This document shows positions 42,742 to 64,000 of a DNA stretch of 64,000 nucleotides, one piece after another. The notes under the pieces were generated by a model. It made no database searches and was not told where the DNA came from. It was given only the letters and a program-made list of their open reading frames with translations. Origin of the DNA: an uncultured Pelagibacteraceae bacterium (lineage in GTDB: Bacteria; Pseudomonadota; Alphaproteobacteria; Pelagibacterales; Pelagibacteraceae); assembly GCA_902604355.1 (NCBI GenBank), contig CACKYN010000005.1, positions 1 through 64,000 on the forward strand, given 5' to 3'. The position numbers and the translations under genes are program-made. Each line of letters opens with the position of its first letter. Position 1 is the first letter of the stretch.

Positions 42742-43875
42742 CTAAATGCTATAATTTTTTTCTATCCAATTACTAATAAATGTAGAAATTTCTTTGCTAT
42801 TTTTTTCATGCATCATCATATGACCATTACCCATTATGTCGTGGTCCTCCAGCCTAATAAATTCGTGCTTAACCCCTGCTTGATTTAAAAAATTACTAGT
42901 TCCATGATCGTATGGTGCATGATATGAGGACTGACCTGTCAGAATAAGAATATTTGTTTTGGACAAATTTTTCAATTTTCTTGCAGGTTCTTTTTGTAAG
43001 AAACACTGAACCAAATCATCCTTTGTATTGTTTTTATCAAGCTCAGGAATTAATTTTTCATCTTTTTTTAAAGGAGGGTCATATGTCAATGGTGAATAGG
43101 TGATACCATTAATTCGATCGAGTTCAGAACTAGTTTGATACCAATCTTTATCATACTCATTTTTTTTGAATGTTTGCTTATCCAAATGAGTATGCTTAAC
43201 ACCTCCGTAAGAAACATTAAAAAAAGGAGGTCCATTTGGTTCCACAGCTATACAACATTTTACTTTGTCTGGTCTTAAATCAGCAGCAAGCCAACAAAAA
43301 GGTCCCCCTTGACTATGACCTAAAACTGCAGTGTGTCCTATCAAATCAATCAATTCGGAAAGTGCTTTTTTTGATATCTCTTCTATATAAATTCTATCTG
43401 ACATAGTATTTACTTGTGAGGCCATGTATTGCTCAAAAATATTATCTCCTCTTAATCCAGTTCCAGGCCACTGAGTATGTGTTTTTGATTGTGGCCAATT
43501 TCCTTTTTTTGACATGCCCGTAAATCTTCTTTCAGCATCGTCTATATTTGTCTCTCTATCTATATAATTACCATATAATTTTTCTGAATAACCAGATCTT
43601 GCTCTACCTGGTTGATCTACAACATAAACTGTGTATCCTGAGGATAAAAAATCATGCATCCACCCTCGTCTGCCGTCCGCTGTAGTAATAAAACCTGATC
43701 CACTTTGTCCACCACCATGAATTAAAATAATATTTTTATTATTAGTTTTAACAGGTTCAAATTGCTCCACATACATTTGTCCTCTGATAACCTTTTTTCC
43801 ATCAGCTAAAAAACTCTCCCCTCCTACAAAAAAAATTTTATGTTCTTTTAGATTAATTGCTGAATTAGTTTCCAT
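42742..43875 (-). CDS. Alpha/beta hydrolase, esterase-713-like
   Basis: 'ILIHGGGQSGSGFITTADGRRGWMHDFLSSGYTVYVVDQPGRARS', nucleophile elbow 'GHSQGG', 'AVEPNGPPF'. Confidence 0.82.
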   Translation of the reverse strand: METNSAINLKEHKIFFVGGESFLADGKKVIRGQMYVEQFEPVKTNNKNIILIHGGGQSGSGFITTADGRRGWMHDFLSSGYTVYVVDQPGRARSGYSEKLYGNYIDRETNIDDAERRFTGMSKKGNWPQSKTHTQWPGTGLRGDNIFEQYMASQVNTMSDRIYIEEISKKALSELIDLIGHTAVLGHSQGGPFCWLAADLRPDKVKCCIAVEPNGPPFFNVSYGGVKHTHLDKQTFKKNEYDKDWYQTSSELDRINGITYSPLTYDPPLKKDEKLIPELDKNNTKDDLVQCFLQKEPARKLKNLSKTNILILTGQSSYHAPYDHGTSNFLNQAGVKHEFIRLEDHDIMGNGHMMMHEKNSKEISTFISNWIEKNYSI

Positions 43876-43925
43876 GATAATGTGTAAATTAAATTACATT
43901 ATTATTTTAATTATTAATATTTAAA

Positions 43926-44984
43926 TTATTTTTTTTTCTTCATTATTTTTAAAATAAATGGGATAGAAAATATTATGAAAAAAATTCTCAAAAAATGGTG
44001 ATAGCTTACAAAAAGTGGATCTATATTGTACGCAACACTTATTACAACCATTTCATGTAATCCACCTGGTGCAAAACTTAAAAAAGCTGACATAAAATCA
44101 AAGCCAAAGAATATTTTTAGTAAGTATGCAAAGAAAGCTGCAATTGCCAACAAAATTGCTGACATAATTGCTCCATGAAAAGAGTAAAATAAAATCTCTT
44201 TTGGAGCTAATCCACTTAGTCTACAGCCAATTGCAGATCCTAAAAATACAAAGGCAACATTTATAAATACATCAGGAAACTTTGCTGTAGTAAACTCAAA
44301 TGTATAAAAAAAACCTGCAACAATCATTGCTGCAAGTATTGGTGCTGATGGTATTCTGAACCTTTCTAAGACTTTTGTACCTATTAGAGATACTATAATT
44401 AAAAATATTAATTCCCCAAAGTATCTCAAATCAAATGTTGGGGTATTACCAAAAGAATCTATTTCTTGATATCCAATCTGAGTGACAAAAATAAAGGGTA
44501 AAAATAAAACAATAAACAAGACTCTAGTGGCTTGAGGAATTACAACTTGCCCACTTTTTTTTTTATCTGTAGTGATATCATTAATTGCTCCAGCTATAAC
44601 TACAAATGCTCCAGGTAGAGCTGCCAAAATAGAAACCAACTTGTTAAATTTACATATCTTATAAAAATAAAAAGATGCTGCGATAGTTCCTGCTATTGTG
44701 CATAAAATCATTGCTATTGAAGAGTAAATCCACAAGTGGATTTTATAAAGTAAAGTTATGTTGAAGGAACCTGCAAGAATTACACCTATAATCAAAAGGA
44801 CGGGTAAAAAAATTTTTTTATCAAAAGTAACTTTGTAACTACTAAAGGATACAAAGAGGTTTAATAATAGAGCCCCCAACAACCAAGGTAATGGTAAATT
44901 AATTAACGTACCAATATATCCACCAATAATGCCAATAATAATACTTTTTAAACTACGTCTAAAGGCTAAATAATATTCTTTCAT
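43926..44984 (-). CDS. AbrB-family (ammonia monooxygenase-like) membrane protein
   Basis: About 10 TM; repeated 'GALLLNLFVSFSSYK' / 'APILAAMIVAGFFY', 'AFLSFAPGGLHEMVVISVAYNIDPLFVSYHHFLRI'. Confidence 0.85.
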   Translation of the reverse strand: MKEYYLAFRRSLKSIIIGIIGGYIGTLINLPLPWLLGALLLNLFVSFSSYKVTFDKKIFLPVLLIIGVILAGSFNITLLYKIHLWIYSSIAMILCTIAGTIAASFYFYKICKFNKLVSILAALPGAFVVIAGAINDITTDKKKSGQVVIPQATRVLFIVLFLPFIFVTQIGYQEIDSFGNTPTFDLRYFGELIFLIIVSLIGTKVLERFRIPSAPILAAMIVAGFFYTFEFTTAKFPDVFINVAFVFLGSAIGCRLSGLAPKEILFYSFHGAIMSAILLAIAAFFAYLLKIFFGFDFMSAFLSFAPGGLHEMVVISVAYNIDPLFVSYHHFLRIFFIIFSIPFILKIMKKKK

Positions 44985-44986
44985 TT

Positions 44987-45829
44987 TCAGTTATTTTCAA
45001 TTGATAAATACTTTTTAAAATTTAACAAAGATAAAGTATCTGATGCTTTGTTTTTAAATTTAGGATTTTTATTATTTTTAATTAATTTTAAAGTTGCATT
45101 GACAGTATCGATATAGCTATTCAAGAGTTGCTGAGAATAGAGAACGAACTTGAAATCGCTTTTCTTAATATCTGATATATTAAATTTTATATCTTGAGTA
45201 ATATTAATTATTAATGGAATTTTTTTTAAATTTTGTTTAATTAATTTTATTTCTCTAAGACTATTAATTCCAGTTATAAATACGGCATGTGCCCCTAATT
45301 TTTTAAACATTTTAGCTCTTTTTATAGACTCTTTAATAGAGCCCACACTTAAAGCATCAGTTCTAGCAAATATCAAAATACTATTATTCTCTTTTGAAGC
45401 TTTAATTGCTGTTTTAATTCTTTTTTCAGATTTCTTTAAATCTAATAATTTTACTTTTTTAGTAAGTGCGCATCTTTTTGGAAAAATTTGATCTTCTAAA
45501 ATAACAGCTGATGCACCTGCCTGCTCTAAATCTTTAATAGTTTTATATACATTAGCTAAACCGCCAAATCCTGTATCTGCATCAACAATTATCGGGTTCT
45601 TTGTCTGATTGCAAATTGATCTTGTTGCATCTACCAATTCTTTCTGGGTAATAATACTTGCGTCGGGATAACCAAGACTAGCAGAGGAAAGAGCGAAACC
45701 ACCAATGAATGAAACTTTAAAACCTTTTTTTTCAATTAATTTAGCTGTCAAAGGATCATGACATGATGGAACCTTATATGAATTTTTATCATTTAAAAAT
45801 TTTTTAAGTTTTGAAGTTTTTTTATTCAC
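44987..45829 (-). CDS. Isocitrate lyase/PEP mutase superfamily protein, methylisocitrate-lyase-like
   Basis: 'PSCHDPLTAKLIEKKGFKVSFIGGFALSSASLGYPD', 'VDADTGFGG', 'ILEDQIFPKRCALTKK', 'FARTDAL'. Confidence 0.85.
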   Translation of the reverse strand: MNKKTSKLKKFLNDKNSYKVPSCHDPLTAKLIEKKGFKVSFIGGFALSSASLGYPDASIITQKELVDATRSICNQTKNPIIVDADTGFGGLANVYKTIKDLEQAGASAVILEDQIFPKRCALTKKVKLLDLKKSEKRIKTAIKASKENNSILIFARTDALSVGSIKESIKRAKMFKKLGAHAVFITGINSLREIKLIKQNLKKIPLIINITQDIKFNISDIKKSDFKFVLYSQQLLNSYIDTVNATLKLIKNNKNPKFKNKASDTLSLLNFKKYLSIENN

Positions 45830-45834
45830 TTGAG

Positions 45835-46503
45835 TTATATTAATACTTTAATTTGGTCTTTATATTTCAATAAGGTTTTATAGAAACTTGATACTGTTTT
45901 GCTAGTAAAAAATTGTTTCCAGCCTGATATACTTAAAGTACCTCTAAAATTATTTTGATTATCAAAAATTGGAATTGCAACACTTGCTATATTATCTAAT
46001 CTTTCACCTTTAGTGTAAATGTAACCTTTTTTTTCAATAGCATTTTTTAAATCGTCATTTCCACCAGTAAACGCACTTAAAACTTTTCCTGTTGCTGATT
46101 TTAATTCAAAAGTTGTACCCTCAACTACATAATGATTTAATTCAGATTTAGAATTCACTCTATATAAACAAACTTTTTTTGTACCAGCCTTGACCCAATA
46201 GCCTGCAGATTGACCAGTCGTTGCACAAATTTTACCCAAAATTTCTCTTATTTCCTCACCAGACCTGAAATTTGAGTTGTATATTGATCCTAATTTCCAA
46301 CTACCTGGACCAAGACGGTAGCTTCCATTAATTTCATTTTTAATTAAAAAATTATATTTAATTAATGAATTACAAATTCTTAATATTGTTGATTTATTAA
46401 GTTTGGTAATAATTGTTAAATCTTTTAGAGAAATACTTTTATTAGCATCATCAAAAGAATTTAATATCTGAAAAGTTTTATCTAGAACTTTTATATTACT
46501 CAT
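45835..46503 (-). CDS. IclR-family transcriptional regulator (start probably 46503, not 46599)
   Basis: N-terminal HTH 'KVLDKTFQILNSFDDANKSISLKDLTIITKLNKSTILRICNSL'; IclR effector domain. Met-Ser-Asn-Ile start at 46503. Confidence 0.88.
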   Translation of the reverse strand: MSNIKVLDKTFQILNSFDDANKSISLKDLTIITKLNKSTILRICNSLIKYNFLIKNEINGSYRLGPGSWKLGSIYNSNFRSGEEIREILGKICATTGQSAGYWVKAGTKKVCLYRVNSKSELNHYVVEGTTFELKSATGKVLSAFTGGNDDLKNAIEKKGYIYTKGERLDNIASVAIPIFDNQNNFRGTLSISGWKQFFTSKTVSSFYKTLLKYKDQIKVLI

Positions 46504-46514
46504 AAGTTTTACAA

Positions 46515-46532
46515 TGTGAAACAAGATTTTAT
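46515..46532 (+). promoter_or_regulatory. Candidate shared regulatory motif, copy 1 (TGTGAAACAAGATTTTAT)
   Basis: Similar to 48115-48131 and 59066-59083; in the iclR/MmgE divergent gap. Confidence 0.4.
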
Positions 46533-46601
46533 AATATAAAATTTGTTGACAATCTATAAATTTTTGTTGAAAATGTTTAATAACAGCAAAGGAAATCAAT
46601 T

Positions 46602-48026
46602 ATGGGAAAAGCTTACACGCCAAATATTCAGTCTGATAAAGGAAAAAATTTAACTAAATACGTTGCTCAATTTGTTAAGAAGAATAAGTTTAATTCAATT
46701 CCAAAAAATGTTGTTGAGTTAGCAAAAAAACATATTATAGACGGTTTTGGTTTAGCTTTATCTGGTTCTGTAGCAAGGACTGGTGATTATTTATTTAAAC
46801 ACATAAAACAAAACTCTGCAAAAGGTAGAGCAACAGTGATTGGCTCTAAAATGAAAGTAACTTCACGATTTGCTGCCTTAGCAAATGGAACAGGTATACA
46901 TTCTGATGACTACGATGATACTCAATTAGCTGTACAAAAAGATAGAGTTTATGGATTATTGACACACCCAACTGCCCCATGCCTACCAAGCGCGTATGCA
47001 GAGGGAGAGTTAAAGAAAATTAGTGGAAAAGAGTTCTTAAATGCCTACTTGGTAGGTGTTGACGTAGAATGTAAAGTTTCTGAAGCAATGTCTCCAAGAC
47101 ATTATCAGCATGGTTTTCATTCAACATCCACATGTGGAACTTTAGCCTCAGCTGCAGCTGCAGCAAAAATCCGTGGCTATAATATTTCTCAAATTCAACA
47201 ATCCTTAGCAGTGGCTGCAACTTTGAGCGCAGGGTTAAGAGAAAATTTTGGTACAATGACTAAACCCTTACATGCTGGAAGAGCAGCTGAAAGTGGAGTT
47301 GTCGCTTGTGATCTTGTGGGCTTAGGTTGGACTGCTACTGATAAAATTTTAGAGTCTCCTAGAGGGTTTTTTCAAGCTCATGGAGGGGGTTATAATTTAA
47401 AATCTATTAAAGGTCAGCTTGGAAGACCATGGACTTTTTCAAAACCTGGTGTTTCAATTAAACCCCATCCCTGTGGTTCATTAACCCATCCCGGAATGAC
47501 AAAAATGTTAGAATTAATTTTGAAGCACGATATAAAACCTCAAGATGTAATTAAAGTTGATGTTGGAACTAATCATAATATGCAAAATGCATTAATTCAT
47601 CATAGACCAACTAATGAGTTTCAAGCTAAATTTAGTATGGAATATTCTATGGCAATTTTGCTAGTTCAGAGAAGAGCATATATTCCAGAATATCAGGATA
47701 AAAGAATTAACAAACCGGATGTTCAAAACATGCTTAGAAAAATAAACTTTTATAAAAATAAAATAGCTGAAGCAGCTGGTTACGATAAAATGACTACAAT
47801 TATTGATATTTATCTTAAAAATGGCAAAAAAATTTCAGGTAGAGGAGATTTTGGTAAAGGAAGTCCAATGATACCTATGACATACGATGAAGTAGCAGAT
47901 AAGTTTATGGGTTGTTGTGAATTTGCAAAATGGCCAACAAAGAAGGCGAAGGCAATTATTCAAGCTGTTAGTAAATTAGAAAAAATGAAAGATATTTCTA
48001 AATTGAGTAGGCTTTTATCCAAATAA
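46602..48026 (+). CDS. MmgE/PrpD family protein, copy 1
   Basis: 'HIIDGFGLALSG', 'GTGIHSDDYDDT', 'GYHS-like HGFHSTSTCGTLASAAAAAKIRG', 'KPLHAGRAAESGVVA'. Confidence 0.9.
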   Translation: MGKAYTPNIQSDKGKNLTKYVAQFVKKNKFNSIPKNVVELAKKHIIDGFGLALSGSVARTGDYLFKHIKQNSAKGRATVIGSKMKVTSRFAALANGTGIHSDDYDDTQLAVQKDRVYGLLTHPTAPCLPSAYAEGELKKISGKEFLNAYLVGVDVECKVSEAMSPRHYQHGFHSTSTCGTLASAAAAAKIRGYNISQIQQSLAVAATLSAGLRENFGTMTKPLHAGRAAESGVVACDLVGLGWTATDKILESPRGFFQAHGGGYNLKSIKGQLGRPWTFSKPGVSIKPHPCGSLTHPGMTKMLELILKHDIKPQDVIKVDVGTNHNMQNALIHHRPTNEFQAKFSMEYSMAILLVQRRAYIPEYQDKRINKPDVQNMLRKINFYKNKIAEAAGYDKMTTIIDIYLKNGKKISGRGDFGKGSPMIPMTYDEVADKFMGCCEFAKWPTKKAKAIIQAVSKLEKMKDISKLSRLLSK

Positions 48027-48039
48027 AATCACATTTTTA

Positions 48040-48066
48040 TGTTAGCGATTAATTAAATCGCTAACA
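48040..48066 (+). terminator. Hairpin after MmgE/PrpD copy 1; possible terminator
   Basis: Perfect 10-bp inverted repeat TGTTAGCGAT (48040-48049) / ATCGCTAACA (48057-48066), 13 nt after the stop codon; no strong T tract on either side. Confidence 0.45.
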
Positions 48067-48167: not shown

Positions 48168-49637
48168 GTGAAAAATTATGATGTAATTGTTGTTGGAGCA
48201 GGTAACGCTGCATTGTCTGCTGCTCTCTCTGCAAAAGATAATGGTGCAGAAAAAGTTTTAGTATTGGAGAAAGCCTCCTCTAAAGAAAAAGGTGGAAACA
48301 GCAGATATACAAACGGTGCTTATAGGTTTGCTTACAATGACTTTTCAGATTTAAAAAAAGTAATACCAAATTTAAAAAATTCTAACAGTATAGATTATGG
48401 AAAATATAGTGTCGCTGATTTTTTAAGAGACATGAATAAAGTTACAGACGGAAAAACAGATAAAAAATTATCTAAAATCCTAACATCAAAAAGTTTTGAA
48501 ACAATTCATTGGTTAAGTAAAAAAGGTTTAAAATTTACACCCATTAAAGGAAGACAATCTTTCAAAGTCAATGGAGTGATGAGATATTGGGGAGGCTTGA
48601 CTTTAGAGGTAAATGGCCAAGGTGAAAAACTAATAGACTCCATGCTTAAGATTATAAAAAAAAATAAAATTGAAATTCTTTATGATACAGCTGCAACTGA
48701 TTTAATTTATGAAGATAATATTATTAAGGGCGTTGAAGTTATAAGTAAAAATAAACCAAAGACGATTACTGCAAAATCCGTAGTTTTAGCTTGTGGAGGT
48801 TTTGAATCCAGTCCTGAAATGAGAACAAGATATCTTGGTCCAGGATGGGAAATGGCAAAAGTCAGAGGAACAAAACATAACACTGGTGATGGATTAAGTA
48901 TGGCGTTAAAAATAGGTGCCTCACCCTATGGAAATTGGTCTGGTTGCCATGCAGTATTTCACGATATGAATGGACCTGAGTTTAGTGATTTAAAGATAAG
49001 TAATAAATATCGAAAAATTAGTTATCCATGGGGAATTGTTTTAAATGCTAATGGAGAGAGATTTGTTGACGAAGGAGAAGATTTTAGAAATTTTACTTAT
49101 GCAAAATTTGGAAAAGAAGTCATAAAACAACCAAATCAAATTGGATGGCAAATTTTTGATCATAAAGTGAGACATATGCTTTATCCAGAGTATGATGTTA
49201 AGTCTGCTACGATGGTTAGAGCTAACTCAATTAAAGAGTTACTTAAAAAAATATCAAGTATAAATTCGCAGAAAGCTCTAAAAACTATAAATGATTTTAA
49301 CAAAGCTGTTAAAGAAGAAGTTAAATATGATCCAACAATTAAAGATGGAAGATGTACAGAGGGTTTAGCACTTAACAAAAGTAATTGGGCAAATAAAATA
49401 GATAAAGCTCCTTTTTATGCTTATGGAGTTACATGTGGAATTACTTTCACTTTTGGTGGATTAAGAGTAAATCAGAAATGCCAAGTGTTAAATAAAGTCA
49501 TGAAGCCTATCAAAGGACTTTTTGCTGCTGGAGAAATGGTAGGTGGTATTTTTTATTTTAACTATCCAGGTGGTAGTGGTTTAACTTCAGGTGCAGTGTT
49601 TGGTAAGATAGCAGGCAAGTACTCTGCTAAACTTTAA
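48168..49637 (+). CDS. TcuA-like FAD-dependent dehydrogenase (FAD_binding_2; tricarballylate dehydrogenase/fumarate reductase flavoprotein family; GTG start)
   Basis: 'DVIVVGAGNAALSAALSAKDNGAEKVLVLEKA..EKGGNSRYTNGAYRF', 'VLACGGFESSPEMRTRYLGPGW', 'GLFAAGEMVGGIFYFNYPGGSGLTSGAVFG'. Confidence 0.88.
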   Translation: MKNYDVIVVGAGNAALSAALSAKDNGAEKVLVLEKASSKEKGGNSRYTNGAYRFAYNDFSDLKKVIPNLKNSNSIDYGKYSVADFLRDMNKVTDGKTDKKLSKILTSKSFETIHWLSKKGLKFTPIKGRQSFKVNGVMRYWGGLTLEVNGQGEKLIDSMLKIIKKNKIEILYDTAATDLIYEDNIIKGVEVISKNKPKTITAKSVVLACGGFESSPEMRTRYLGPGWEMAKVRGTKHNTGDGLSMALKIGASPYGNWSGCHAVFHDMNGPEFSDLKISNKYRKISYPWGIVLNANGERFVDEGEDFRNFTYAKFGKEVIKQPNQIGWQIFDHKVRHMLYPEYDVKSATMVRANSIKELLKKISSINSQKALKTINDFNKAVKEEVKYDPTIKDGRCTEGLALNKSNWANKIDKAPFYAYGVTCGITFTFGGLRVNQKCQVLNKVMKPIKGLFAAGEMVGGIFYFNYPGGSGLTSGAVFGKIAGKYSAKL

Positions 49638-50688
49638 ATGGACTTCTTACATCATATTTTTTAGATAATTTCTCTAGTTCTTTAATAGTTTCTTTAGAGA
49701 GCAAAATTCCTTTTTTTGAGTTTACATTTTGATTATTAAATTCAGGCTCACCAGGATGTAGTATTTTTTTAAAGCCTTTTGCTTTTTTAAGTTTTTTTAC
49801 CTCCTTAATTCCAAATTCAATTTTTTTTATAAAGTTCGTGTGTGATTGAAATAGATCAGTCCTAAGACAAATCATCAAATGACCTACATTTGAAGCTCCA
49901 GAAAAGTCATTAATTGCATTTTTAACTTTACCACTATGATTTGCACCTGTAAAAATTCCAGCTACTATATCCATCATCCATGATAATCCAGCACCTTTCA
50001 TTCCTCCAAAAGGTAACATGATTCCTTCAAAAGCTTTTGCCCCATCATTCGTGGGTTTTCCAAATTTATCCAATGCATACCCAAAAGGTATTTTAATATT
50101 ATTTTGAGCAGCAAATTTTAACTTTCCTCTCGCAACAGAAGAAGATGCCATATCAAGTATAAAGGGTTTATTGATTTTTTTTGTAGGACAGCCAAATGCA
50201 AAAGGACTTGTGCCAAAGAAAGGTGCCATCGCTCCATGAGGTGGCAAGGCTTTTGATGCGTTAGTAAATACCCAAGCAATACATTTATTTTTTGCAGCAA
50301 TTTCTAAATAATTTGCTGCCATTCCAAAATGGTTGCTTTCACTTATTCCTACCAAACCAATCCCATTTTTTTTTGCTAGAGAGACGCATTTTTTTATTCC
50401 TTCATTGGCGGCTATATAACCCAGACCATTATCACCTGACAAATGAAAAATATTATTAGTTATTTTTTTAAATTTCAGTATTGGATTAATTTTAGCTGAT
50501 TTTTTTTCAATCCTTTTTATATAAATTGGTAATCTAACAATACCGTGTGACCAAACACCTCTTTCATCTGCTCTCACTATTAAATTTGCAACTGTTTTTG
50601 AATTTAAGTTATTTAAGCCAACTTTTTTTAGAACCTTAAATGCAAAATTGATTAAATCTGTTTTTTTATATCTTTTTTTAATATTCAT
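49627..50688 (-). CDS. LDH2/MDH-family NAD(P)-dependent dehydrogenase
   Basis: 'RADERGVWSHGIVRLPIYIKRIE', 'GIGLVGISESNHFGMAANYLEIA', 'GTSPFAFGCPTK', 'LDMASSSVARGK', 'PFGGMKGAGLSWMMDI'. Confidence 0.9.
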   Translation of the reverse strand: MNIKKRYKKTDLINFAFKVLKKVGLNNLNSKTVANLIVRADERGVWSHGIVRLPIYIKRIEKKSAKINPILKFKKITNNIFHLSGDNGLGYIAANEGIKKCVSLAKKNGIGLVGISESNHFGMAANYLEIAAKNKCIAWVFTNASKALPPHGAMAPFFGTSPFAFGCPTKKINKPFILDMASSSVARGKLKFAAQNNIKIPFGYALDKFGKPTNDGAKAFEGIMLPFGGMKGAGLSWMMDIVAGIFTGANHSGKVKNAINDFSGASNVGHLMICLRTDLFQSHTNFIKKIEFGIKEVKKLKKAKGFKKILHPGEPEFNNQNVNSKKGILLSKETIKELEKLSKKYDVRSPFKV

Positions 50689-53399: not shown

Positions 53400-53404
53400 G
53401 ATTA

Positions 53405-54538: not shown

Positions 54539-55383
54539 GAAATTCTTATATCTCCACTTATTTGAGTTCTATGCATAACCCGTCTAGTATTTGGGTCAAA
54601 TGAGTCTCTTTTGTGTAAGACAAAAAGATTTTTCCACATCAACACTTCGTTATTTTGCCATCGATGGGTAAAGGTATATTTTTCTTGCGTAGCATGTAAC
54701 CATAATTCATTTAGTAGACTCTCACTTTCATCAATAGTCATTCCAACTATGTAAGCATGTGGTCTTCTGCCAAGAAAAAGTGATTTTTTTTGAGTAGTAG
54801 GATCTTTAAAAATAATTGGATGTTTTGCTCCTGGCGTTAGAGATGGATCAGCATTTTCTTTGTACCCTTTTCTTAATTGTCCAGCACTATTATGTGAGGC
54901 ATCATGAATTAAAATTTTACCATGAATTTTTTTTATTAAGCGCTCAGGCATATCCTCATAAGCAGCAATCATATTAGAAAAGTGTGTATCACCTTGATTT
55001 TTTGGTACTTCTAACGAGTACAAAATTGCACCTTTTGGCGGAATTTCATTATAGGTCATATCAGCATGCCATGTGGCCTCGCCATCACCAAGAATACCAA
55101 TTGGTTTTCCTTTTTCTTTAACATTTGATATTACGTTTATTTCTGGGTATTCAGGTGAAAAATTTATCCCATATGGATTAGGTGCAGGTAAGTCTAAATT
55201 TCCAAAGTATTTACTAAATTTTAATAATTGTGGATCATTTAATTTTTGATTTTTAAATGTCAAAACTAAATTTTCATCCCAAGCTTTTTGGATAAAATTA
55301 ATCTGATCTACTTTTAAATCTTTTGATAAATCAATATTTACAATTTCAGCTGATAAAGCTTTTTTACTTTTAATTAAATTCAT
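54535..55383 (-). CDS. TauD/TfdA-family Fe(II)/2-oxoglutarate dioxygenase
   Basis: 'GEATWHADMTYNEIPPKGAILYSLEVPKNQGDTHFSNM' (HxD), 'WQNNEVLMWKNLFVLHKRDSFDPNTRRVMHRTQI' (distal His and Arg). Confidence 0.9.
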   Translation of the reverse strand: MNLIKSKKALSAEIVNIDLSKDLKVDQINFIQKAWDENLVLTFKNQKLNDPQLLKFSKYFGNLDLPAPNPYGINFSPEYPEINVISNVKEKGKPIGILGDGEATWHADMTYNEIPPKGAILYSLEVPKNQGDTHFSNMIAAYEDMPERLIKKIHGKILIHDASHNSAGQLRKGYKENADPSLTPGAKHPIIFKDPTTQKKSLFLGRRPHAYIVGMTIDESESLLNELWLHATQEKYTFTHRWQNNEVLMWKNLFVLHKRDSFDPNTRRVMHRTQISGDIRIS

Positions 55384-55417: not shown

Positions 55418-56179
55418 TTACAAATAAGGCTCTAAACCTACATAAATTAATCTAAGCGCGCCAAATAGTAGTATGAAGGTTAATACTTTTTTAAAATATT
55501 TCTCTCCTTTAGAGACTAAAACAAGCTTGCCTATAAAAGTCCCAACAAAGCCAACTAAAATCATTAATCCAACTAGAAATATATATTCCTCAAAAGCAAA
55601 ACCTATAAAAAAAAATGCTAATGATTTAAATAAATGTTGAAAAGTCATTAAAGAACCATGTGTGACCACATGTTTAACTGGATTAAAGTTAAAATTTTTA
55701 ATCAACGCTGATATTAATGGACCTGAAGCACCAAATAACATCGACAATGTTGATGATACTGCCCCACCAAAAAAAATATACTTTTTTCCAAGTTTTGGAA
55801 ATTTACCAAAGATAGAATAAAGTATAAATAACCCAACCCCTACCTGTCCAATTGAGGGATCTAATACTTCATAAATATTTACTCCCAAATATGATCCTAT
55901 TAAACTACCAATAATGAACGGAAGAATAACACTTTTATCTAAATCTTTAACAGAGACAAATATTCTTGCAAAATTTGACCCTAATTGAACTATTCCATGA
56001 ACAGGTATTAACGCAAGTGGTGGTACAACAAATGATAAACCCACTAACATTAGAATTCCACCACCAAGACTTAAGGCAGTGGATATAAAAGAACAAATTA
56101 AATTTAGAATTATTAAAAAAACTGCTGCATATATTGAAATTGTTTCAGGTAAAAGAGATGAAAAGTCCATTAATCTCAA
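55418..56179 (-). CDS. TSUP (TauE/SafE) family anion permease
   Basis: About 8 TM; 'ALSLGGGILMLVGLSFVVPPLALIPVHGIVQLGSNFARI', 'FGASGPLISALIKN'. Confidence 0.88.
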   Translation of the reverse strand: MRLMDFSSLLPETISIYAAVFLIILNLICSFISTALSLGGGILMLVGLSFVVPPLALIPVHGIVQLGSNFARIFVSVKDLDKSVILPFIIGSLIGSYLGVNIYEVLDPSIGQVGVGLFILYSIFGKFPKLGKKYIFFGGAVSSTLSMLFGASGPLISALIKNFNFNPVKHVVTHGSLMTFQHLFKSLAFFFIGFAFEEYIFLVGLMILVGFVGTFIGKLVLVSKGEKYFKKVLTFILLFGALRLIYVGLEPYL

Positions 56180-57522
56180 AGATTAAGATCACACAACTTA
56201 ACTAATTCACTGGCATTAAAGTCTTTATGTAAAATTAAATCAATAAGATCATCGGTTTGAGATGTTTTAAAAACTGAAAACAATCTTTTTGATTTCGCAA
56301 TAATATCCTTTTCTTCCATGGGGTTATCTGGGGTTCCACGAACAGACTTTGCATGGTAAAATAGTTTTTTATCATTATTTAAGATAATTGTAATTTTAGA
56401 CTGCCTTTCTGGTCTAGCAATTGCTAATTCCTCACTTGAAATAGATTTAATTTTTTTTCTCAAACTTACTACTTCCGAGTCGTTGAATAGTTGTTCATCA
56501 TGTGCCTCTTCATATCCCATAGTTTTTTTTATTAAATGAACGGCAATTAAATGTTGTGCACTGATAGAAGGAATTTCTCTATCATTAACAATGTGAAAAC
56601 GATCAGCTGGTATTTCTACTGTTAATTCTTTTATATCTTTGTAATTAAAGTCATTATTTTGAAGTAAATACTCTATTGCATCCATCATGGATTGAATTGG
56701 TGAGCCTACAGACCATTTTTTTAATGAAGCATTATCAATTTCAAAATTTTCACCTAATTTTTCGTTTAACAGTTCAGGTTTAGCATTGTGAGCAAAGCCT
56801 GCATGAAATCCCCTTTCTCCTAAGATCGGATCTCTCACAGATGTAAAATTATCTTTAGCTAATAATGCTGAATAAATGGCATTTCTTGAGGTCATTCCAG
56901 AGAATACAAATGCTTTCTCAATATGATCAGGATCTCTATTCCAACATGCTAATCCTGAAGCTTGTTGAACAGTATATGAAATCAAATAATTGCATTGTTC
57001 GTGAGTTAATTTTAATAACGCACCAGCAGAAGCTGCACTTCCAAAAATTGGTCCTATACTGTGAGTTGCAAAAATACTAGTTTTAGGTGTTTTATATCCA
57101 AGGCTTGTTGTAAACCTAACGCCAACATCATAACCCAAAGCAATACCTTTAAAAATTTCCTCACTGCTAAGATTTTCTTTCTCTGCGACTGCCAGTGTTG
57201 TTGGAATTATTGCGCAACCTGGATGAAATCTTCCTTTTGTATGTGAGTCATCAGTTTCGTTGGCATGAGCAGCCATACCATTTGAAAATGCAGCATTTAT
57301 TGCCGAAACTTTAATATTATTACCTAATAAAGTGGCCTCCTGTACTCCGCCTTGATTTTTTGAAAAATTAAAACCTTTTTGCCCAGGAGGCAAAAGCCTC
57401 CCTGTAAGTATAGAAACAATCGCATCTAGTAAATGAAAACGTGTTTTGATTTTAGTTTTTTCAGGTAGATTATTACTTAAAGCTGTTGAAATATATTTTG
57501 TTAAATCATCCTGGATTTTCAT
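56176..57522 (-). CDS. MmgE/PrpD family protein, copy 2
   Basis: 'NGMAAHANETDDSHTKGRFHPGCAIIPTTLAVAE', 'GYDVGVRFT', 'FHAGFAHNAKPELL'. Confidence 0.9.
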   Translation of the reverse strand: MKIQDDLTKYISTALSNNLPEKTKIKTRFHLLDAIVSILTGRLLPPGQKGFNFSKNQGGVQEATLLGNNIKVSAINAAFSNGMAAHANETDDSHTKGRFHPGCAIIPTTLAVAEKENLSSEEIFKGIALGYDVGVRFTTSLGYKTPKTSIFATHSIGPIFGSAASAGALLKLTHEQCNYLISYTVQQASGLACWNRDPDHIEKAFVFSGMTSRNAIYSALLAKDNFTSVRDPILGERGFHAGFAHNAKPELLNEKLGENFEIDNASLKKWSVGSPIQSMMDAIEYLLQNNDFNYKDIKELTVEIPADRFHIVNDREIPSISAQHLIAVHLIKKTMGYEEAHDEQLFNDSEVVSLRKKIKSISSEELAIARPERQSKITIILNNDKKLFYHAKSVRGTPDNPMEEKDIIAKSKRLFSVFKTSQTDDLIDLILHKDFNASELVKLCDLNL

Positions 57523-59033
57523 TAGAAAATACCTTTTATATTATTTTTTTTGAAGTCTAAATGTTTTTCTTTGCAGACTATATTTAAAGTCTTTATTTCA
57601 TTTGATTTTAATTTTTCCAGATTACCAATTAAATTTATAAATCTATTTTCTTCTTGTTTATGAATTATATTTTTAGTCAAAATTTTCATTTTATTAATAT
57701 ATTCATCTCTTCCAAAAGGAGTTTTTCCATTTGGATGAGCATTGGCAAATTCTAGTTGGTCAATTATTTTTAGTCCATTCATAAGCTCTATTTCTACTTT
57801 TGCTCCTTGTGCTTTTTTTAAAGGATCAGGTTCATCATAATACTTTTTATTCCAACTTTTACTTTCAAAAGTTTTTATTTTTCTCCATAATTTAATCGTA
57901 TCAAGTTTATTTTTTCTTTTTTTAGAATAACTTTTTTCGTGGTGCCAAGCTCCATCTTCCAAAGCAACTGCAAAAATATACATTGCTGAATGGTCAAGAG
58001 TTTCTCTTGAGGCTTTAGGACTATACTTTTCATTATCATTGCTCCCACTACCCATCACAATATGGGTATATTTTTTTGAATAAATATTTATTTTTTTTAT
58101 ATGCTTTATATTTTTAATTTTTTTTCTCATCTTAAATGCTAAATCAATTAAAGCATTTCCATGATAACCCGCTGAATGTTCTTTTGTAAAAGTTCCTAAA
58201 ATTCCATTTCTAGACTCATTTTTTTCAGGTAAATTAATTTTTATATTTTTGTTTTCTTTTTCTAATAAAATTGAAATGATACCATAATCACCCTCCCAAA
58301 CTGGACTTGGTGATTTATCACCTCTGATTGCTCTATCAATTGCATCTATTGCATTTTTACCAACTAACCCAGGAGCATAAGCTTTCCAGCTAGATAAGTT
58401 TCCTTTTCTTCCTTGTCTTGTAAAAATAGACGTGTGTGCACTCCACTGTATCGCTTGATAAATTGTTTCTGTATCTAACTTTAAAAGTCTACCAATTCCA
58501 CTAGTAATTGCTGGACCTAAATGTCCTACATGATCAATCTTATTTGGATTAAGAGCAATTGACATTGATAACCTTAATTGTGTTTCATAACTTGTTGCAA
58601 TAGCTTTTATTAAATCTTTACCATTACAATTTCTTTGCTGCGCTACTGCTAAAATAGTTGGTATGCAGTCTCCAGGATGGCAAGTTTCTTTAGCCATTAT
58701 ATTGTCATGAAAATCTAATTCTCTCACTGCTACTGCATTTGCCCAAGCTGCCCACTGACAATCAAATTTTTTTTTTGAATTTAATCCAATTAAAGTCGCA
58801 CCACTTCTATTTTCAAACTGCATCGCTTGTGCTCTAGCAATTTTAACTGCCTCCCTATTTAAAGCAGCAACTGCAACACCTGCATTGTCAATAATCCTAT
58901 TGCCAACCATCTCAATTACATCTTTGTTTAAATTCCAATCTTCAGAAGCCATCTTAGCAATTAGCCAAGCTAGGTGATTTTTTTTACTTATTTTTTTTCC
59001 CGGTTTTTGAAGTTTAATTGGATGTGTTTTCAT
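57522..59033 (-). CDS. MmgE/PrpD family protein, copy 3 (closest to canonical PrpD by eye)
   Basis: 'AVAVRELDFHDNIMAKETCHPGDCIPTILAVAQQRNCNGKDLIKAIATSYETQLRL', 'KAYAPGLVGKNAIDAIDRAIRGDKSP'. Confidence 0.9.
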   Translation of the reverse strand: MKTHPIKLQKPGKKISKKNHLAWLIAKMASEDWNLNKDVIEMVGNRIIDNAGVAVAALNREAVKIARAQAMQFENRSGATLIGLNSKKKFDCQWAAWANAVAVRELDFHDNIMAKETCHPGDCIPTILAVAQQRNCNGKDLIKAIATSYETQLRLSMSIALNPNKIDHVGHLGPAITSGIGRLLKLDTETIYQAIQWSAHTSIFTRQGRKGNLSSWKAYAPGLVGKNAIDAIDRAIRGDKSPSPVWEGDYGIISILLEKENKNIKINLPEKNESRNGILGTFTKEHSAGYHGNALIDLAFKMRKKIKNIKHIKKINIYSKKYTHIVMGSGSNDNEKYSPKASRETLDHSAMYIFAVALEDGAWHHEKSYSKKRKNKLDTIKLWRKIKTFESKSWNKKYYDEPDPLKKAQGAKVEIELMNGLKIIDQLEFANAHPNGKTPFGRDEYINKMKILTKNIIHKQEENRFINLIGNLEKLKSNEIKTLNIVCKEKHLDFKKNNIKGIF

Positions 59034-59057
59034 AAATAACTAAATAAATGAATTATG

Positions 59058-59083
59058 TTTCATAATATGAAATGACATTTTAC
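59058..59083. promoter_or_regulatory. Palindromic operator candidate overlapping shared motif copy 3
   Basis: Perfect 15-nt palindrome TTTCATAATATGAAA (59058-59072); overlaps TATGAAATGACATTTTAC (59066-59083). Sits between divergent PrpD copy 3 and tctC. Confidence 0.5.
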
Positions 59084-59152
59084 ATATTGAACTTAACTCT
59101 ATTAATGTGTTAACCTTTGTCAATTTTAATAAAACTAACTGAGAGGGAAATT

Positions 59153-60142
59153 ATGTTCAAACTAAATTTGAAAAAGTTTTTTGCTTTTTTTTCTTTATTC
59201 GCTCTTACTTACACATCGATAGCTAGTACATCAGTAGTTGCTGAAACTTTTGCTACTAAAGAGTGTGATCCAATACAAGTTGTGATTCATGCTTCTTATG
59301 GTGGAGGAACAGATACAACTGCCAGAATGATGTCTATCAGATCTAGAAGAACTCTAAAAGCTGATATGCAAATCGTAGGTAAAAGAGGTGGATCAGGAGC
59401 TAAAGCTCAAAACTACACTTTAACAAGACCAAAAGATGGTTGTACAATTATGGCTTTAACAGAGTCACACTTATACACAATGGCTAGAGGCAAATCTAAC
59501 ATGAAGATCGATGATCTTGTTGGAGTTGCTAGAGCTATGGAAGAGCCAACTTTTATAGTTGTAAATGCTGCAAATAAAGAGCTAAGTACAATTAAAAAGT
59601 TTATTAAAAGAGCTCAAAAGAAACCAATCATAACTGCTATCGCTTCTATTGGTGGTACTGAACACATTGGAATGTACAACTATTCTACAGTTGCTGGGGT
59701 TCCGTTTAAAGCTGTTTCATTTGGATCTGGTGCGCAAAGTTTACAAGCTTTGGCATCTGGAAAAGTTGAAGCATCGTTATTGAATCCATCAGAAGCAGCT
59801 GCTTTAATTGAAGATAAAAAAATTAAAGCAATTCTTTTGTTACATGACAAGAAAATGGCAGACTATCCAAAAGTTCCAACTTCATATGAAATGGGTCATG
59901 AAGTTAAAGTTGTTACTACAAGAGGATATGCTGTACTAAAAGGAACGCCTCAAGACAGAATTGATGCGCTTTCTAAAGGTATGGTCAAAGCTATGAAACA
60001 TGACACTTTCGCTAATTATCTTAAAGGAGCTTCTCTAGATCCTGCAACTAGCCCAGCTGGTACAGAGGTTTGGGATAAGCAACTTAAAGAAAATTACGCA
60101 AAAGCTGCTGAGGCATTAAAAGGATTAGGTTTAACTAATTAA
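59153..60142 (+). CDS. tctC: Tripartite tricarboxylate transporter substrate-binding protein (TctC); ATG at 59153 preferred over TTG at 59117
   Basis: Signal peptide; 'CDPIQVVIHASYGGGTDTTARMM', 'GKRGGSGAKAQNYTLTRPKDGCTIMAL', 'GGTEHIGMYNYSTVAGVPFKAVSFGSGAQSLQALASGKVEA'; GAGAGG RBS. Confidence 0.92.
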   Translation: MFKLNLKKFFAFFSLFALTYTSIASTSVVAETFATKECDPIQVVIHASYGGGTDTTARMMSIRSRRTLKADMQIVGKRGGSGAKAQNYTLTRPKDGCTIMALTESHLYTMARGKSNMKIDDLVGVARAMEEPTFIVVNAANKELSTIKKFIKRAQKKPIITAIASIGGTEHIGMYNYSTVAGVPFKAVSFGSGAQSLQALASGKVEASLLNPSEAAALIEDKKIKAILLLHDKKMADYPKVPTSYEMGHEVKVVTTRGYAVLKGTPQDRIDALSKGMVKAMKHDTFANYLKGASLDPATSPAGTEVWDKQLKENYAKAAEALKGLGLTN

Positions 60143-60672
60143 TGTCTGAAGAAAAAAAAACTTTTGACTTTGCGCCCAGAACATTGGGCGCAGGGTTTAT
60201 TCATAAAAAAGATTTAGTACTTGCGATCATATTAGTTGCTTTTGGGGCGTTCATGTACTACGAAGCTGGAAAATTTCCAGAAGCCCCTGCTATTTTAGGA
60301 GATACTTTAAATGCAGATGTATTTCCAAAAATGCTTATTACAATATTATTTATTCTAGTTGCGATTATACCTTTTGAATTCAAACTTACTCCAGCAAAAA
60401 TAGCAAAAATAGATAAAGATAGAGGTGATAGAACATTACCAATAACTTGGTTCACAATAGTTCTATTACTTGTAATAGTTTCTTTTGCTGAATTTTTAGG
60501 TGCAGTTGTAACAATGTTTATCACTTGTTTAGCCTTACCTCTTCTTTGGGGAGAAAGAAATTATATAGCAGTCGCTATATATTCAGTTGTGTTTCCTGGT
60601 TTTGTTTATTTATTATTCAATAAATTGCTAGGATTGTATTTTAATCCTGGAATACTGGAATTACTTAAATAA
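60142..60672 (+). CDS. tctB: Tripartite tricarboxylate transporter small membrane subunit (TctB)
   Basis: Four predicted TM; 'GDTLNADVFPKMLITILFI'; between tctC and tctA. Confidence 0.9.
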   Translation: MSEEKKTFDFAPRTLGAGFIHKKDLVLAIILVAFGAFMYYEAGKFPEAPAILGDTLNADVFPKMLITILFILVAIIPFEFKLTPAKIAKIDKDRGDRTLPITWFTIVLLLVIVSFAEFLGAVVTMFITCLALPLLWGERNYIAVAIYSVVFPGFVYLLFNKLLGLYFNPGILELLK

Positions 60673-60677
60673 AAATT

Positions 60678-62168
60678 ATGGAAGACGTAATAAGAGGATT
60701 TGTATTATTGATGGAGGTTCAAAACCTCTTATTGATTTTTGGTGGAGTTTTGGTTGGTGTATTAGTTGGTGCTCTACCTGGATTAAGTTCACCTATGGCT
60801 ATTGCTTTGTTAATGCCATTCACGATAAGTCTTGATCCTGTTGCATCTATATCAATGATGGCGGCATTATATTGTGCAGGAACCTTCGGTGGTTCAATTA
60901 CTGCAATACTTATCAATGCACCAGGAGCGCCTCCTGCGGTTGCTACTGCTTTAGATGGTTATCAAATGGCAAAAAATGGTGAGCCAGGAAGAGCTTTGGG
61001 TCTAGCAGCAGTTTCCAGTGTATTAGGTGGAATATTTGCAATTGTTATATTTTTATTTGCAACTCCTTTACTTGCTGACATAGCTCTAAAATTTGGACCA
61101 GTTGAATATTTTGGTTTATCAGTTTTTGCTTTATCTATGTTAGCTGCCATGAGTGGTAAATCATCTATAAGAAATCTTGTAGCTGGGGCTTTAGGAGTAT
61201 TCGTATCAACAATTGGAGTTCACCTAGCCACAGGAGTTGAAAGATATGATTTTGGAGTTCAGGAATTAACTGAAGGTATTAAATTTGTACCAGTCCTAAT
61301 TGGACTTTTTGCAATGTCAGAATTATTAACACAATCAAAAACATTAAACGCTGCTGTTGAAAGAATGTCTGCAAGAGCATTAAGGTTACCGACATTTGCT
61401 GAATTAAAAAGTTTAAAAGGTACCATACTAAGATCTTCAGGTCTTGGAACATTTATTGGAATATTGCCTGCAGAGGGTTCAACAGTTGCGGCTATGATGG
61501 GATACAACGAAGCTAAAAGATTTTCAAAAACTCCAGAAAAATTTGGTACAGGATGTGCTGAGGGAATAGTTGGACCAGAAGCTGCAAATAATGCTGCAGC
61601 TGGTGGTGCAATGGTTCCAACACTTGCACTTGGAATACCTGGAAGTGGAACTACAGCCTTAATTTTAGCGGCGTTAGTTATGCATGGTTTCAGACCAGGT
61701 CCTTATCTAATAACAGAAACTCCACATCTAGTGTACGCAATTTTTGGAGCTATGTTATTTGCTAACTTTGCATTTCTAGGAATTGGTTTAGCGGGTGCTA
61801 GATTTTTCTCTTATGTGACTTTTATTCCTAAAAGATTTCTATGGCCTTCAGTATTTATATTTTCTTTAATTGGTTCATACGCTTATAGTTCAGCTATTTT
61901 CGATGTATGGGTTATGTTGATATCTGGAATAATTGGTTATTTTGCTTTAAGAAATGGATTTTCACCTGCTCCTTTTGTTATGGGTTTAATTTTAGGAAAA
62001 ATGGTTGAAGAAACTTTCACTCAATCAATGGTTATCTATGAGAGTAATTTCATGAACTTCTTTGACAGTGGAGTATTTATTTTATTTATGGTATTGACTG
62101 TAATTAGTTTATCAACACCATTTTGGGGTCAAATACGCTCTAAATTAAAACCTAAACCAGTTGAATAA
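60678..62168 (+). CDS. tctA: Tripartite tricarboxylate transporter large permease (TctA)
   Basis: 'LVGALPGLSSPMAIALLMPFTISLDPVASISMMAALYCAGTFGGSITAILINAPGAPPAVATALDGYQMAKNGEPGRALG', 'PTLALGIPGSGTTALILAAL'. Confidence 0.96.
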   Translation: MEDVIRGFVLLMEVQNLLLIFGGVLVGVLVGALPGLSSPMAIALLMPFTISLDPVASISMMAALYCAGTFGGSITAILINAPGAPPAVATALDGYQMAKNGEPGRALGLAAVSSVLGGIFAIVIFLFATPLLADIALKFGPVEYFGLSVFALSMLAAMSGKSSIRNLVAGALGVFVSTIGVHLATGVERYDFGVQELTEGIKFVPVLIGLFAMSELLTQSKTLNAAVERMSARALRLPTFAELKSLKGTILRSSGLGTFIGILPAEGSTVAAMMGYNEAKRFSKTPEKFGTGCAEGIVGPEAANNAAAGGAMVPTLALGIPGSGTTALILAALVMHGFRPGPYLITETPHLVYAIFGAMLFANFAFLGIGLAGARFFSYVTFIPKRFLWPSVFIFSLIGSYAYSSAIFDVWVMLISGIIGYFALRNGFSPAPFVMGLILGKMVEETFTQSMVIYESNFMNFFDSGVFILFMVLTVISLSTPFWGQIRSKLKPKPVE

Positions 62169-62925
62169 AAAATTCACCAAAAACAAAGTAGTCGTAATAA
62201 CTGGTGGCGCAAAAAAAATAGGTAGATCAACAGCACTAAAATTAGCTGAACAAGGTTTTAATATTTTAATTCACACTGGTGGCAAGAGTGTTAATGAAGC
62301 TAAAACAACTGTAAAACTAGTAAAAGAATTCAAAGTAAAAGCCCACTATGTTATGGGGGATCTTGCAAATACAAAAACAATTAAAAAAATTAAAATAGCA
62401 GCAGAGAAATTGGGTGTTCCATCTATTCTAATAAATAATGCTGGTTTGAGAATTTTTGAAAATTTTGAAAATATAAAATATAAGGATTGGAAGAAAGTGA
62501 TGTCGGTTAATGTGGATGCTTCTTTCTTGTGTACCCAAGCTCTTATAAAACATATGACTAAACAAAAATGGGGAAGAATTATAAATATAGGAGGTTTGTC
62601 TGGTCATATCGGTGCTAAAGAAAGGGCTCATGTTGTTACTTCAAAAGCAGCTCTTGTTGGTTTAACAAAAGCCATCAGTATGGAGTTTTTAGAAAGAGGA
62701 ATTACTTGTAATTGTGTTGTTCCTGGTTTTATTGAAGATTTTAGTTCTAAAGAAAAAAAACTTAAAGGACACTGGTTGCGTCATCCACAAACTCCAAATT
62801 TAGTGCTGAAGAGATTTGGAAATCCTGAAGAAGTAGCTGAAGTAATTGTTAATCTTTGTAAAAAGGAAGCTAGTTATATTAATGGACAGACACTTCATGT
62901 TAATGGGGGTAGTTATACCCCATGA
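62161..62925 (+). CDS. Short-chain dehydrogenase/reductase (TTG start)
   Basis: 'VVITGGAKKIGRSTALKLAEQGFN', 'LINNAGLRIFENF', 'HVVTSKAALVGLTKA' (Tyr of YxxxK appears as His-Val), 'YINGQTLHVNGGSYTP'. Confidence 0.85.
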   Translation: MNKKFTKNKVVVITGGAKKIGRSTALKLAEQGFNILIHTGGKSVNEAKTTVKLVKEFKVKAHYVMGDLANTKTIKKIKIAAEKLGVPSILINNAGLRIFENFENIKYKDWKKVMSVNVDASFLCTQALIKHMTKQKWGRIINIGGLSGHIGAKERAHVVTSKAALVGLTKAISMEFLERGITCNCVVPGFIEDFSSKEKKLKGHWLRHPQTPNLVLKRFGNPEEVAEVIVNLCKKEASYINGQTLHVNGGSYTP

Positions 62926-64000
62926 TAATTGCAGAAGAATTTTCTAGTTGGAGTAAAAACTTAAAAGTTAAAGATATTCCAGAAAAAACCCAGTTTACAT
63001 TGAAGTTCTTATTGAAGGATATATGTGGAATTATTTTATCAGCAAGAAACGAGGATTATGTAAAAAGTTTAGTTGAAACTTATAAAGGATCAGGAAGCTT
63101 GATATCTTTAGGTCACAGTGAAAGATTTGATTTATTTTCATCAGCCATAATAGCTGGTACTGCAGCACATGGTGAGGATTTTGATGATACTTTTGAGGGA
63201 AATCCAATGCATGTTGGGGCTACAATGATCCCTGCAATGCTCTCTGCAGCTCAGAAATTTAATCTTGATGGTGATCAAATTTTAAAGGGACTAGCTGTTG
63301 GATCAGAGTTAATTTGTAGATTGGCTTTAGTAGCACCAACCGCAATGCATAAACAATCTTTTCACCCAACTGCAGTTTGTGGAACGTTTGGTGTTGCTGC
63401 TGGTTTATCATCAGTATTAGACATGTCAGAAAAGCAAATGGTATCAGCTTTGGGTATAGCAGGTAGCTTTACCTCGGGTATCATTGAATATCTTGCTGAA
63501 GGATCATGGACTAAAAGAGTTCATCCAGGTTGGTCAGCAAACTCTGGAATGAATGCTACACTGATTGCAAAATCTGGTTTTTATGGACCACGGACTGTTT
63601 TTGAGGGTAAGCATGGTTTCTTTGAGGCTTTTGCATTAAAAGAGATTGAGAGAGATTATTCTCATTTAACCAATGGATTAGGTAAAAGATGGGAAAATCA
63701 AAATTTAGCTTTTAAACCTTTTGCCTGTGGAACCATGGCACAACCTTTTGTCGATTGTGCTATTAAAATTAGAAAAAAAATCAAAAATTTAGATGAAATT
63801 TCCTCTATTACTGCAAAAGTTGGTGAGGGTACTGTCCACAGATTATGGGAACCTTTGAAAGAAAAAAGGCAACCATCAACACCTTACTCAGCCAAATTTT
63901 CAGTCCCATATTGTGTAGCTGTAGGATTTATTAGAGGAGATGCTGGTTTAAACGAATTTAACGAAAAAAGTATAAATGACAAAGAAATTTTAAGCCTAGC
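62922..64000 (+). CDS. MmgE/PrpD family protein, copy 4, 3'-truncated by window end (absent from the ORF track)
   Basis: Manual translation from ATG 62922 (ATGA overlap with SDR stop): MIIAEEFSSWSKNLKVKDIPEKTQFTLKFLLKDICGIILSARNED...AHGEDFDDTFEGNPMHVGATMIPAMLSAAQKF...; open to the window end in the stretches checked. Confidence 0.85.
   Translation, partial: MIIAEEFSSWSKNLKVKDIPEKTQFTLKFLLKDICGIILSARNEDYVKSLVETYKGSGSLISLGHSERFDLFSSAIIAGTAAHGEDFDDTFEGNPMHVGATMIPAMLSAAQKFNLDGDQILKGLAVGSELICRLALVAPTAMHKQSFHPTAVCGTFGVAAGLSSVLDMSEKQMVSALGIAGSFTSGIIEYLAEGSWTKRVHPGWSANSGMNATLIAKSGFYGPRTVFEGKHGFFEAFALKEIERDYSHLTNGLGKRWENQNLAFKPFACGTMAQPFVDCAIKIRKKIKNLDEISSITAKVGEGTVHRLWEPLKEKRQPSTPYSAKFSVPYCVAVGFIRGDAGLNEFNEKSINDKEILSL

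Follow-up and report, generated by a model that had tools for sequence, protein, structure and literature searches.

A mobile catabolic island of SAR11 bacteria on which a new aconitase clade appears to replace PrpD

The 64-kb stretch of DNA analyzed here (the window) is contig C5 (CACKYN010000005.1, positions 1 to 64,000) of a 974-kb, 44-contig, 75%-complete assembly from an uncultured Pelagibacteraceae bacterium (GCA_902604355.1, here G000). It carries an insertion of ~23.7 kb that starts at position 42,703, extends 2.4 kb beyond the window, and harbors an aconitase-type gene, here called acn2, next to a gene for a PrpF-family isomerase, as well as four MmgE/PrpD-family genes (prpD1 to prpD4), tctCBA transporter genes and genes for several further enzymes and membrane proteins (Table 1). 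From the comparisons of genomes described below, this mobile island appears to effect an enzyme replacement of a known type, that of PrpD by a hydratase and a PrpF-family isomerase, with a new aconitase clade supplying the hydratase. Genomes, loci and genera are designated by the letters G, L and g, respectively, g1 being the genus of the window.

Borders and distribution of the island

The 5-oxoprolinase gene pxpB and the pxpA gene are divergent neighbors in 29/29 island-free Pelagibacter loci, whereas ~23.7 kb separates them here, and the borders of the island are therefore sharp. The prpD4 reading frame crosses the end of the window and stops at contig position 64271; it is followed by a TSUP gene, a rhodanese gene (to 66298) and then pxpA. 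All of the genes named in a first-pass annotation of this DNA were recovered at or near the positions given there, with intact reading frames and Pfam/NCBIfam support, and its view of the region as one discrete catabolic island is supported. The 18 island genes tested against the relative G222 have ratios of non-synonymous to synonymous substitution (dN/dS) of 0.016-0.13, which argues that they are functional. The feature is a discrete insertion under selection in its SAR11 host, and its four MmgE/PrpD genes are the only ones found in the assembly.

Searches for orthologues of the island PrpF gave matches in Pelagibacterales only, in 4/121 genomes (that of the window and its relatives). A scan of contigs from named genomes yielded 24 loci, all of them in Pelagibacterales and including the isolate HIMB114, with PrpF loci 99% identical in uncultured Pelagibacteraceae single-cell genomes. 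PrpD3 orthologues (72-93% identical) occur in 10/397 genomes of the order, that of the window counted. The island is present in three arrangements: type A, that of g1, separates pxpB from pxpA; in type B (g9) the Tct-SDR-PrpD4 segment is inverted and tauD is missing; and type C (g6, g8) adjoins the housekeeping acnA gene. It is thus a rare island that has been rearranged and occupies more than one site. Some of its genes are inconstant, as TSUP1 is missing from G222, G048 and G225, and tauD from all g9 islands as well as from loci L217 and L222.

Set against a small sample of core genes taken from a single reference locus, the island genes of the window's genome are more similar to those of g9 (median identity 81% vs 69%, p 0.015) and g6 (80% vs 67%, p 0.001), but not to those of g8, which hints at transfer of the island within SAR11. 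Exact insertion coordinates in g8, derived from a 250-aa flank match, were abandoned because the match did not hold. Two MED single-cell genomes, G048 and G117, were set aside, as they have identical island contigs across different families and the pxpB-pxpA junction of G048 is intact. SAG-MED32 and SAG-MED34 (L012/L016, L013/L017) have island contigs with identical PrpF although they are placed in different families, and cross-contamination is likely. A literature search, which missed most subscription papers, found no description of the island or of PrpD replacement in SAR11.

Acn2, PrpF and the methylcitrate cycle

Experiments have shown that AcnD together with PrpF can replace PrpD, probably by way of 4-methyl-cis-aconitate (PMC5690661). 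The acn2 product had at first been labeled AcnD-like, but it is of AcnA type by score (TIGR01341 1041, cut-off 945) and remains well below the AcnD cut-off (TIGR02333 828, cut-off 1420), for which the AcnA of the host scores 817 and a genuine AcnD 1735. It is about equally distant from AcnD and AcnA (44-47%), and its diagnostic columns are mixed, 13 being AcnD-like, 21 AcnA-like and 23 neither. The [4Fe-4S] cysteines are retained in the motifs SCTNT and CTTC (positions 421 and 488), and residues near the cluster, TCNG after the cluster cysteines and GTDSHTP, are common to Acn2 and AcnD. In the island PrpF, K64 and C98 are invariant among seven homologues and correspond to K73 and C107 of the Shewanella enzyme SoPrpF, both of which were shown to be important (PMC5690661). 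By family the pair is thus not AcnD-PrpF, yet it seems to do the job of AcnD-PrpF.

The first-pass annotation reasoned from the lack of prpC in the window that the substrate may be an imported acid rather than propionyl-CoA. This argument does not hold, as prpB and a bifunctional prpC lie side by side on contig C2 (C2:39651-41671), with scores above the cut-offs for PrpB (TIGR02317 375, cut-off 354) and PrpC (NF010636 599, cut-off 479). The check for a complete prpBCD elsewhere in the genome thus had an intermediate outcome, with prpB and prpC found and prpD not. In other g1 genomes the operon reads c227-prpD-prpB-prpC, and prpD alone is gone from that of the window's genome, which is internal to its contig. 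A genome-wide search detected housekeeping PrpD in 0/10 genomes with intact acn2-prpF, where only PrpD3 (49-55% identical) matched, and in 17 island-free genomes of six genera. Both states, prpD without the island and intact acn2-prpF without prpD, occur within each of four genera (g1, g6, g8 and g9), and another seven single-cell genomes, in which acn2 is full-length, show a c227-prpB-prpC operon that lacks prpD. In the 20 island-free genomes without detected PrpD, the prpB match is truncated or at a contig end, or prpB is missing as well, as in G004, G157 and G163. Without the island, therefore, prpD has been lost jointly with prpB, or its loss seems to be only the effect of a contig break.

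The position of the pair points in the same direction as its distribution. Most of the g6, g8, g9 and g10 genomes that were examined and lack the island have prpD directly downstream of acnA, with no gap, while the island genomes of g6 and g8 have acnA-acn2-prpF, the pair occupying the exact slot of prpD. In G362, the island genome of g9 that was examined, the gene immediately after acnA is the one that comes after prpD in an island-free relative. Because the ancestral prpD site in g6, g8 and g9 is after acnA, the idea that their prpD-less c227-prpB-prpC operon reflects a loss from that operon was dropped. Conversely, the island of G030 has acn2 cut to a 46-residue remnant (residues 830-875) and lacks tcuA, and no other acn2 was found in this genome; it keeps the housekeeping prpD in its operon despite intact prpD1, prpD2 and prpD3 on the island. 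This pattern singles out acn2, rather than prpD3, as the gene that makes prpD dispensable. The absence of housekeeping prpD from genomes with intact acn2-prpF points to a methylcitrate-cycle role for the pair, which most likely serves the host's own cycle and would come from a different aconitase lineage than AcnD.

The closest known parallel is the AcnD-PrpF methylcitrate cycle of Shewanella and Burkholderiaceae (prpB-prpC-acnD-prpF), in which the genes for an aconitase-type hydratase and a PrpF-family isomerase are also adjacent and co-directional, in genomes with prpB and prpC and without prpD. In contrast to that arrangement, the SAR11 pair is found on a catabolic island far from prpB-prpC.

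In the g1 genomes examined (G127, which is complete, G000, G222, G143 and G030), no citrate synthase was found other than the bifunctional PrpC encoded in the prp operon (G000:C2:39651-40775, L137), whereas two are present in genomes of g6 and g8. In g9, a 199-aa gene without known function lies between a HAD-phosphatase gene and prpB (G342:C5:42026-42625; G256:C6:51263-51862). At G000:C2:12717-17086 (L136), the window's genome has a second PrpF-family gene, which scores just under the cut-off for 4-oxalomesaconate tautomerase (427, cut-off 440) and has homologues within type C islands; it adjoins genes for a receptor resembling TctC and for a long protein of the TctA family.

The PrpD paralogues and the TctCBA module

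PrpD1 to PrpD4 all score above the PF03972 cut-off of the MmgE/PrpD superfamily, and they are ancient paralogues in the tree. PrpD3 falls within the actinobacterial-type PrpD branch, the same as the SAR11 housekeeping PrpD, but 8/8 PrpD3 sequences have the motif SAGYHGN in place of the [SP]AE[YF][QH][SA]Q found in every canonical PrpD compared, those of SAR11 and E. coli included. The conserved Lys and His positions are retained in PrpD1, PrpD2 and PrpD4. These positions and the fold family are shared with the isomerases and decarboxylases of the superfamily (methylsuccinate isomerase, IDS epimerase and cis-aconitate decarboxylase); on the other hand, each island paralogue forms its own branch, and no itaconate-pathway CoA-transferase or lyase is co-located.

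Similar gene sets are found outside SAR11. An ~11-kb region of plasmid pDY25-A of Pacificitalea manganoxidans (NZ_CP021405 45128-56596) encodes counterparts of AbrB, the SDR-family dehydrogenase, TctCBA, PrpD1, PrpD2 and PrpD4, together with a PrpD3-like fourth MmgE copy that also has SAGYHG. Subsets occur in three-MmgE clusters on Phyllobacterium and Neorhizobium plasmids, with PrpD1 and PrpD4 counterparts, SDR, TctCBA, and either AbrB or, at its position, an unnamed protein. Unlike the island, the Pacificitalea and rhizobial clusters have no Acn2, PrpF, TcuA or LDH2 within the stretches viewed, but pdxA and tartrate-dehydrogenase genes instead, and no characterization of any of these clusters was found. 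Paracoccus versutus has TctCBA, SDR, AbrB, a PrpD4 counterpart, TcuA and an alpha/beta hydrolase; on its plasmid pTAV3 (L287), a TcuA gene is paired with a phosphosulfolactate synthase gene and adjoins an SDR-TctCBA-PrpD4 cluster.

TctCBA, SDR, AbrB and the four PrpD paralogues are a conserved, recurrent and uncharacterized module, predicted to serve polycarboxylate catabolism. Known MmgE/PrpD members act on non-CoA di- or tricarboxylate substrates with a common C4 dicarboxylate core (PMC12290011). Together with the retained Lys and His, this makes an imported, probably hydroxylated, branched polycarboxylate the likely class of substrate. The comparison of TctC with the PDB returned an unnamed UPF0065 protein and a generic receptor as best matches, which indicate no ligand. 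The earlier proposal of a pathway for imported tri- or dicarboxylates is thus plausible for the TctCBA-SDR-PrpD part, which recurs in unrelated Alphaproteobacteria, while acn2-prpF points to the methylcitrate cycle instead. As in tricarballylate catabolism (TcuA/TcuB), a TcuA-like flavoprotein is encoded near an aconitase-type gene and a Tct transporter, an arrangement comparable to that on a Shinella plasmid. The differences are that no TcuB was seen in the island, to which the search for it was confined, and that TcuA is absent from the island genome G030. The protein likened at first to methylisocitrate lyase fails the PrpB cut-off (Table 1) and has KRCAL at the KRCGH position of PrpB.

Variation within the module was also noted. 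Type C islands have a fifth MmgE/PrpD gene, which contains two stop codons in G225 (C1:711433-712656) and is open in G135 and G367. The abrB gene of G362 (C4:78417-79474) is in two frames and is a pseudogene or affected by a sequencing error. A PrpD1-like fragment (80% identical) lies directly next to prpC in G152 (C18, L154), where no island was detected, and PrpD1 may therefore also travel alone.

Table 1. Genes of the island and its flanks (window coordinates unless marked otherwise).
Feature	Position	Strand	Basis or remark
pxpC and pxpB (5-oxoprolinase subunits), left flank, outside island	41091..42702	-	TIGR00724 239 (cut-off 230); TIGR00370 134 (cut-off 146)
Alpha/beta hydrolase, 377 aa	42742..43875	-	PF00561 9e-12; orthologues in type A, B and C islands
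AbrB-family membrane protein (permease-like)	43926..44984	-	PF05145 8e-69
PEP (phosphoenolpyruvate)-mutase/isocitrate-lyase superfamily protein, not PrpB	44987..45829	-	PF13714 7e-42; TIGR02317 174 (cut-off 354)
IclR-family regulator	45835..46599	-	PF01614, PF09339
PrpD1, MmgE/PrpD paralogue	46602..48026	+	Tree: with cl1 of Pacificitalea and with copies on rhizobial plasmids; closest PDB entry IDS epimerase (155 bits)
TcuA-like flavoprotein dehydrogenase	48168..49637	+	NF006130 557 (cut-off 369); TIGR02485 244 (cut-off 373)
LDH2-family dehydrogenase	49627..50688	-	PF02615 6e-102
Acn2, third clade of AcnA/AcnD group; proposed 2-methylcitrate dehydratase with PrpF	50772..53399	+	Family scores, tree, co-distribution with prpD loss
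PrpF-family isomerase	53405..54538	+	PF04303 8e-106; K64, C98 invariant
TauD/TfdA dioxygenase, accessory	54535..55383	-	PF02668 3e-52; missing from some islands
TSUP permease 1 (TSUP1), accessory	55418..56179	-	No NCBIfam match; family name from first-pass annotation, not confirmed by family search
PrpD2, MmgE/PrpD paralogue	56176..57522	-	PF03972; tree: with Pacificitalea cl3
PrpD3, actinobacterial-type PrpD branch, motif SAGYHGN	57522..59033	-	NF042438 611 (cut-off 950)
TctC solute-binding receptor	59117..60142	+	PF03401 3e-19
TctB	60142..60672	+	Small membrane protein between TctC and TctA
TctA permease	60678..62168	+	Kept with tctC/tctB in all island types; homologous to TctA on C2
SDR-family dehydrogenase	62161..62925	+	PF13561 2e-44
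PrpD4, MmgE/PrpD paralogue, complete, 449 aa	62922..64000, on to contig 64271	+	Family search, tree
pxpA, right flank	contig 66380		pxpB/pxpA adjacency in 29/29 island-free loci

Two probable functions on one island, and the alternatives

The island probably bundles two functions, the replacement of PrpD by Acn2-PrpF and a module for polycarboxylate uptake and degradation. In the first, Acn2 would form the 4-methyl isomer of aconitate from 2-methylcitrate by dehydration, and PrpF would convert this isomer to 2-methyl-cis-aconitate; hydration by the housekeeping AcnA would then yield the compound from which PrpB releases pyruvate and succinate, PrpC and PrpB being encoded elsewhere in the genome. 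In the second, TctCBA, SDR, AbrB and the four MmgE/PrpD enzymes might take up and degrade a polycarboxylic acid, for which feeder steps may be carried out by TcuA, LDH2, the hydrolase and the PEP-mutase-like protein. What the sequence itself shows are the borders of the island, its genes, the repeated co-loss of prpD and the recurrence of the second module elsewhere, while enzyme activities, substrates and a coupling between the two modules are inferred.

Several points weigh against this reading. In the tree, for which the program warned that the Acn2 and AcnD branches are both long, Acn2 forms its own clade (support 100/100) outside both AcnD and AcnA. The island PrpF is under the PrpF equivalog cut-off (TIGR02334 328, cut-off 440.55), a genuine PrpF scoring 749. 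Related genomes are non-independent, and the prpD contrast is drawn from about four genera; the discriminating genome, G030, is one draft metagenome-assembled genome, 83% complete. The substrate of the polycarboxylate module and the order of its steps are not readable from sequence.

A bolder form of the two-function reading, possible but rather doubtful, is that Acn2 represents a third type of 2-methylcitrate-class dehydratase that evolved independently, and that it travels with a new pathway of four MmgE/PrpD enzymes acting on one imported polycarboxylate. The two would be biochemically coupled, so that gain of the pathway would repeatedly rewire the propionate branch of central metabolism in SAR11.

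It is unlikely, although this was the view of the first-pass annotation, that Acn2-PrpF itself acts on an imported tricarboxylate such as trans-aconitate, tricarballylate or a citrate analogue. In that case TctCBA would import the compound, TcuA oxidize it, PrpF shift its double bond and Acn2 hydrate the product, and the loss of prpD would be a side effect. PrpF isomerizes trans-aconitate in vitro (PMC5690661), acn2-prpF is linked to TctCBA in all island types, and clusters of AcnA, PrpF, TcuA and Tct genes without prpC do exist in other bacteria. Those of Shinella and Hydrogenophaga encode TcuA(B), PrpF, Tct and a hydratase of the aconitase superfamily, and Rhodococcus opacus has a Tct-PrpF-AbrB-citrate symporter-AcnA-PEP-mutase-PrpD cluster. 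However, the aconitases of the Shinella and Rhodococcus clusters fall with AcnA and not with Acn2. Moreover, an imported substrate leaves unexplained why prpD was lost with prpB kept, repeatedly in four genera, why prpD was kept where acn2 is deleted, and why acn2-prpF sits in the slot of prpD.

That PrpD3 instead of Acn2-PrpF took over the housekeeping PrpD reaction seems improbable. PrpD3 shares the branch of the housekeeping enzyme and is present in every island with a resolved region, but its divergent SAGYHGN motif and the retention of prpD in G030 beside an intact prpD3 both argue against a takeover. The degradation of a sulfonated or other sulfur-containing acid, in which TauD would free sulfite, TSUP export it and rhodanese handle sulfur, is suggested by tauD, the two TSUP genes, the rhodanese gene, and the similarity of LDH2 to sulfolactate dehydrogenase (244, cut-off 500). 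It is very improbable, since TauD and TSUP1 are inconstant across islands while the PrpD-Tct-SDR core is constant, and no sulfo-lyase was identified in the block. Finally, the fragmented assembly and the two MED genomes with identical island contigs might suggest an artefact or contamination, but this is refuted for the block as a whole, and has next to no probability, given its presence on a contig of the isolate HIMB114 and in many independent single-cell and metagenome-assembled genomes, in three arrangements and under purifying selection.

As SAR11 bacteria are abundant and their genomes streamlined, a 24-kb catabolic island that apparently swaps a central enzyme is unexpected. If the two-function reading is correct, PrpD would have been replaced in nature, in several SAR11 genera, by an aconitase and an isomerase from outside the AcnD clade, and the aconitase family would gain a dehydratase lineage. 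The island would also offer a concrete, testable gene set for an unassigned organic acid in seawater. As the isolate HIMB114 carries the island, the question is approachable in culture.

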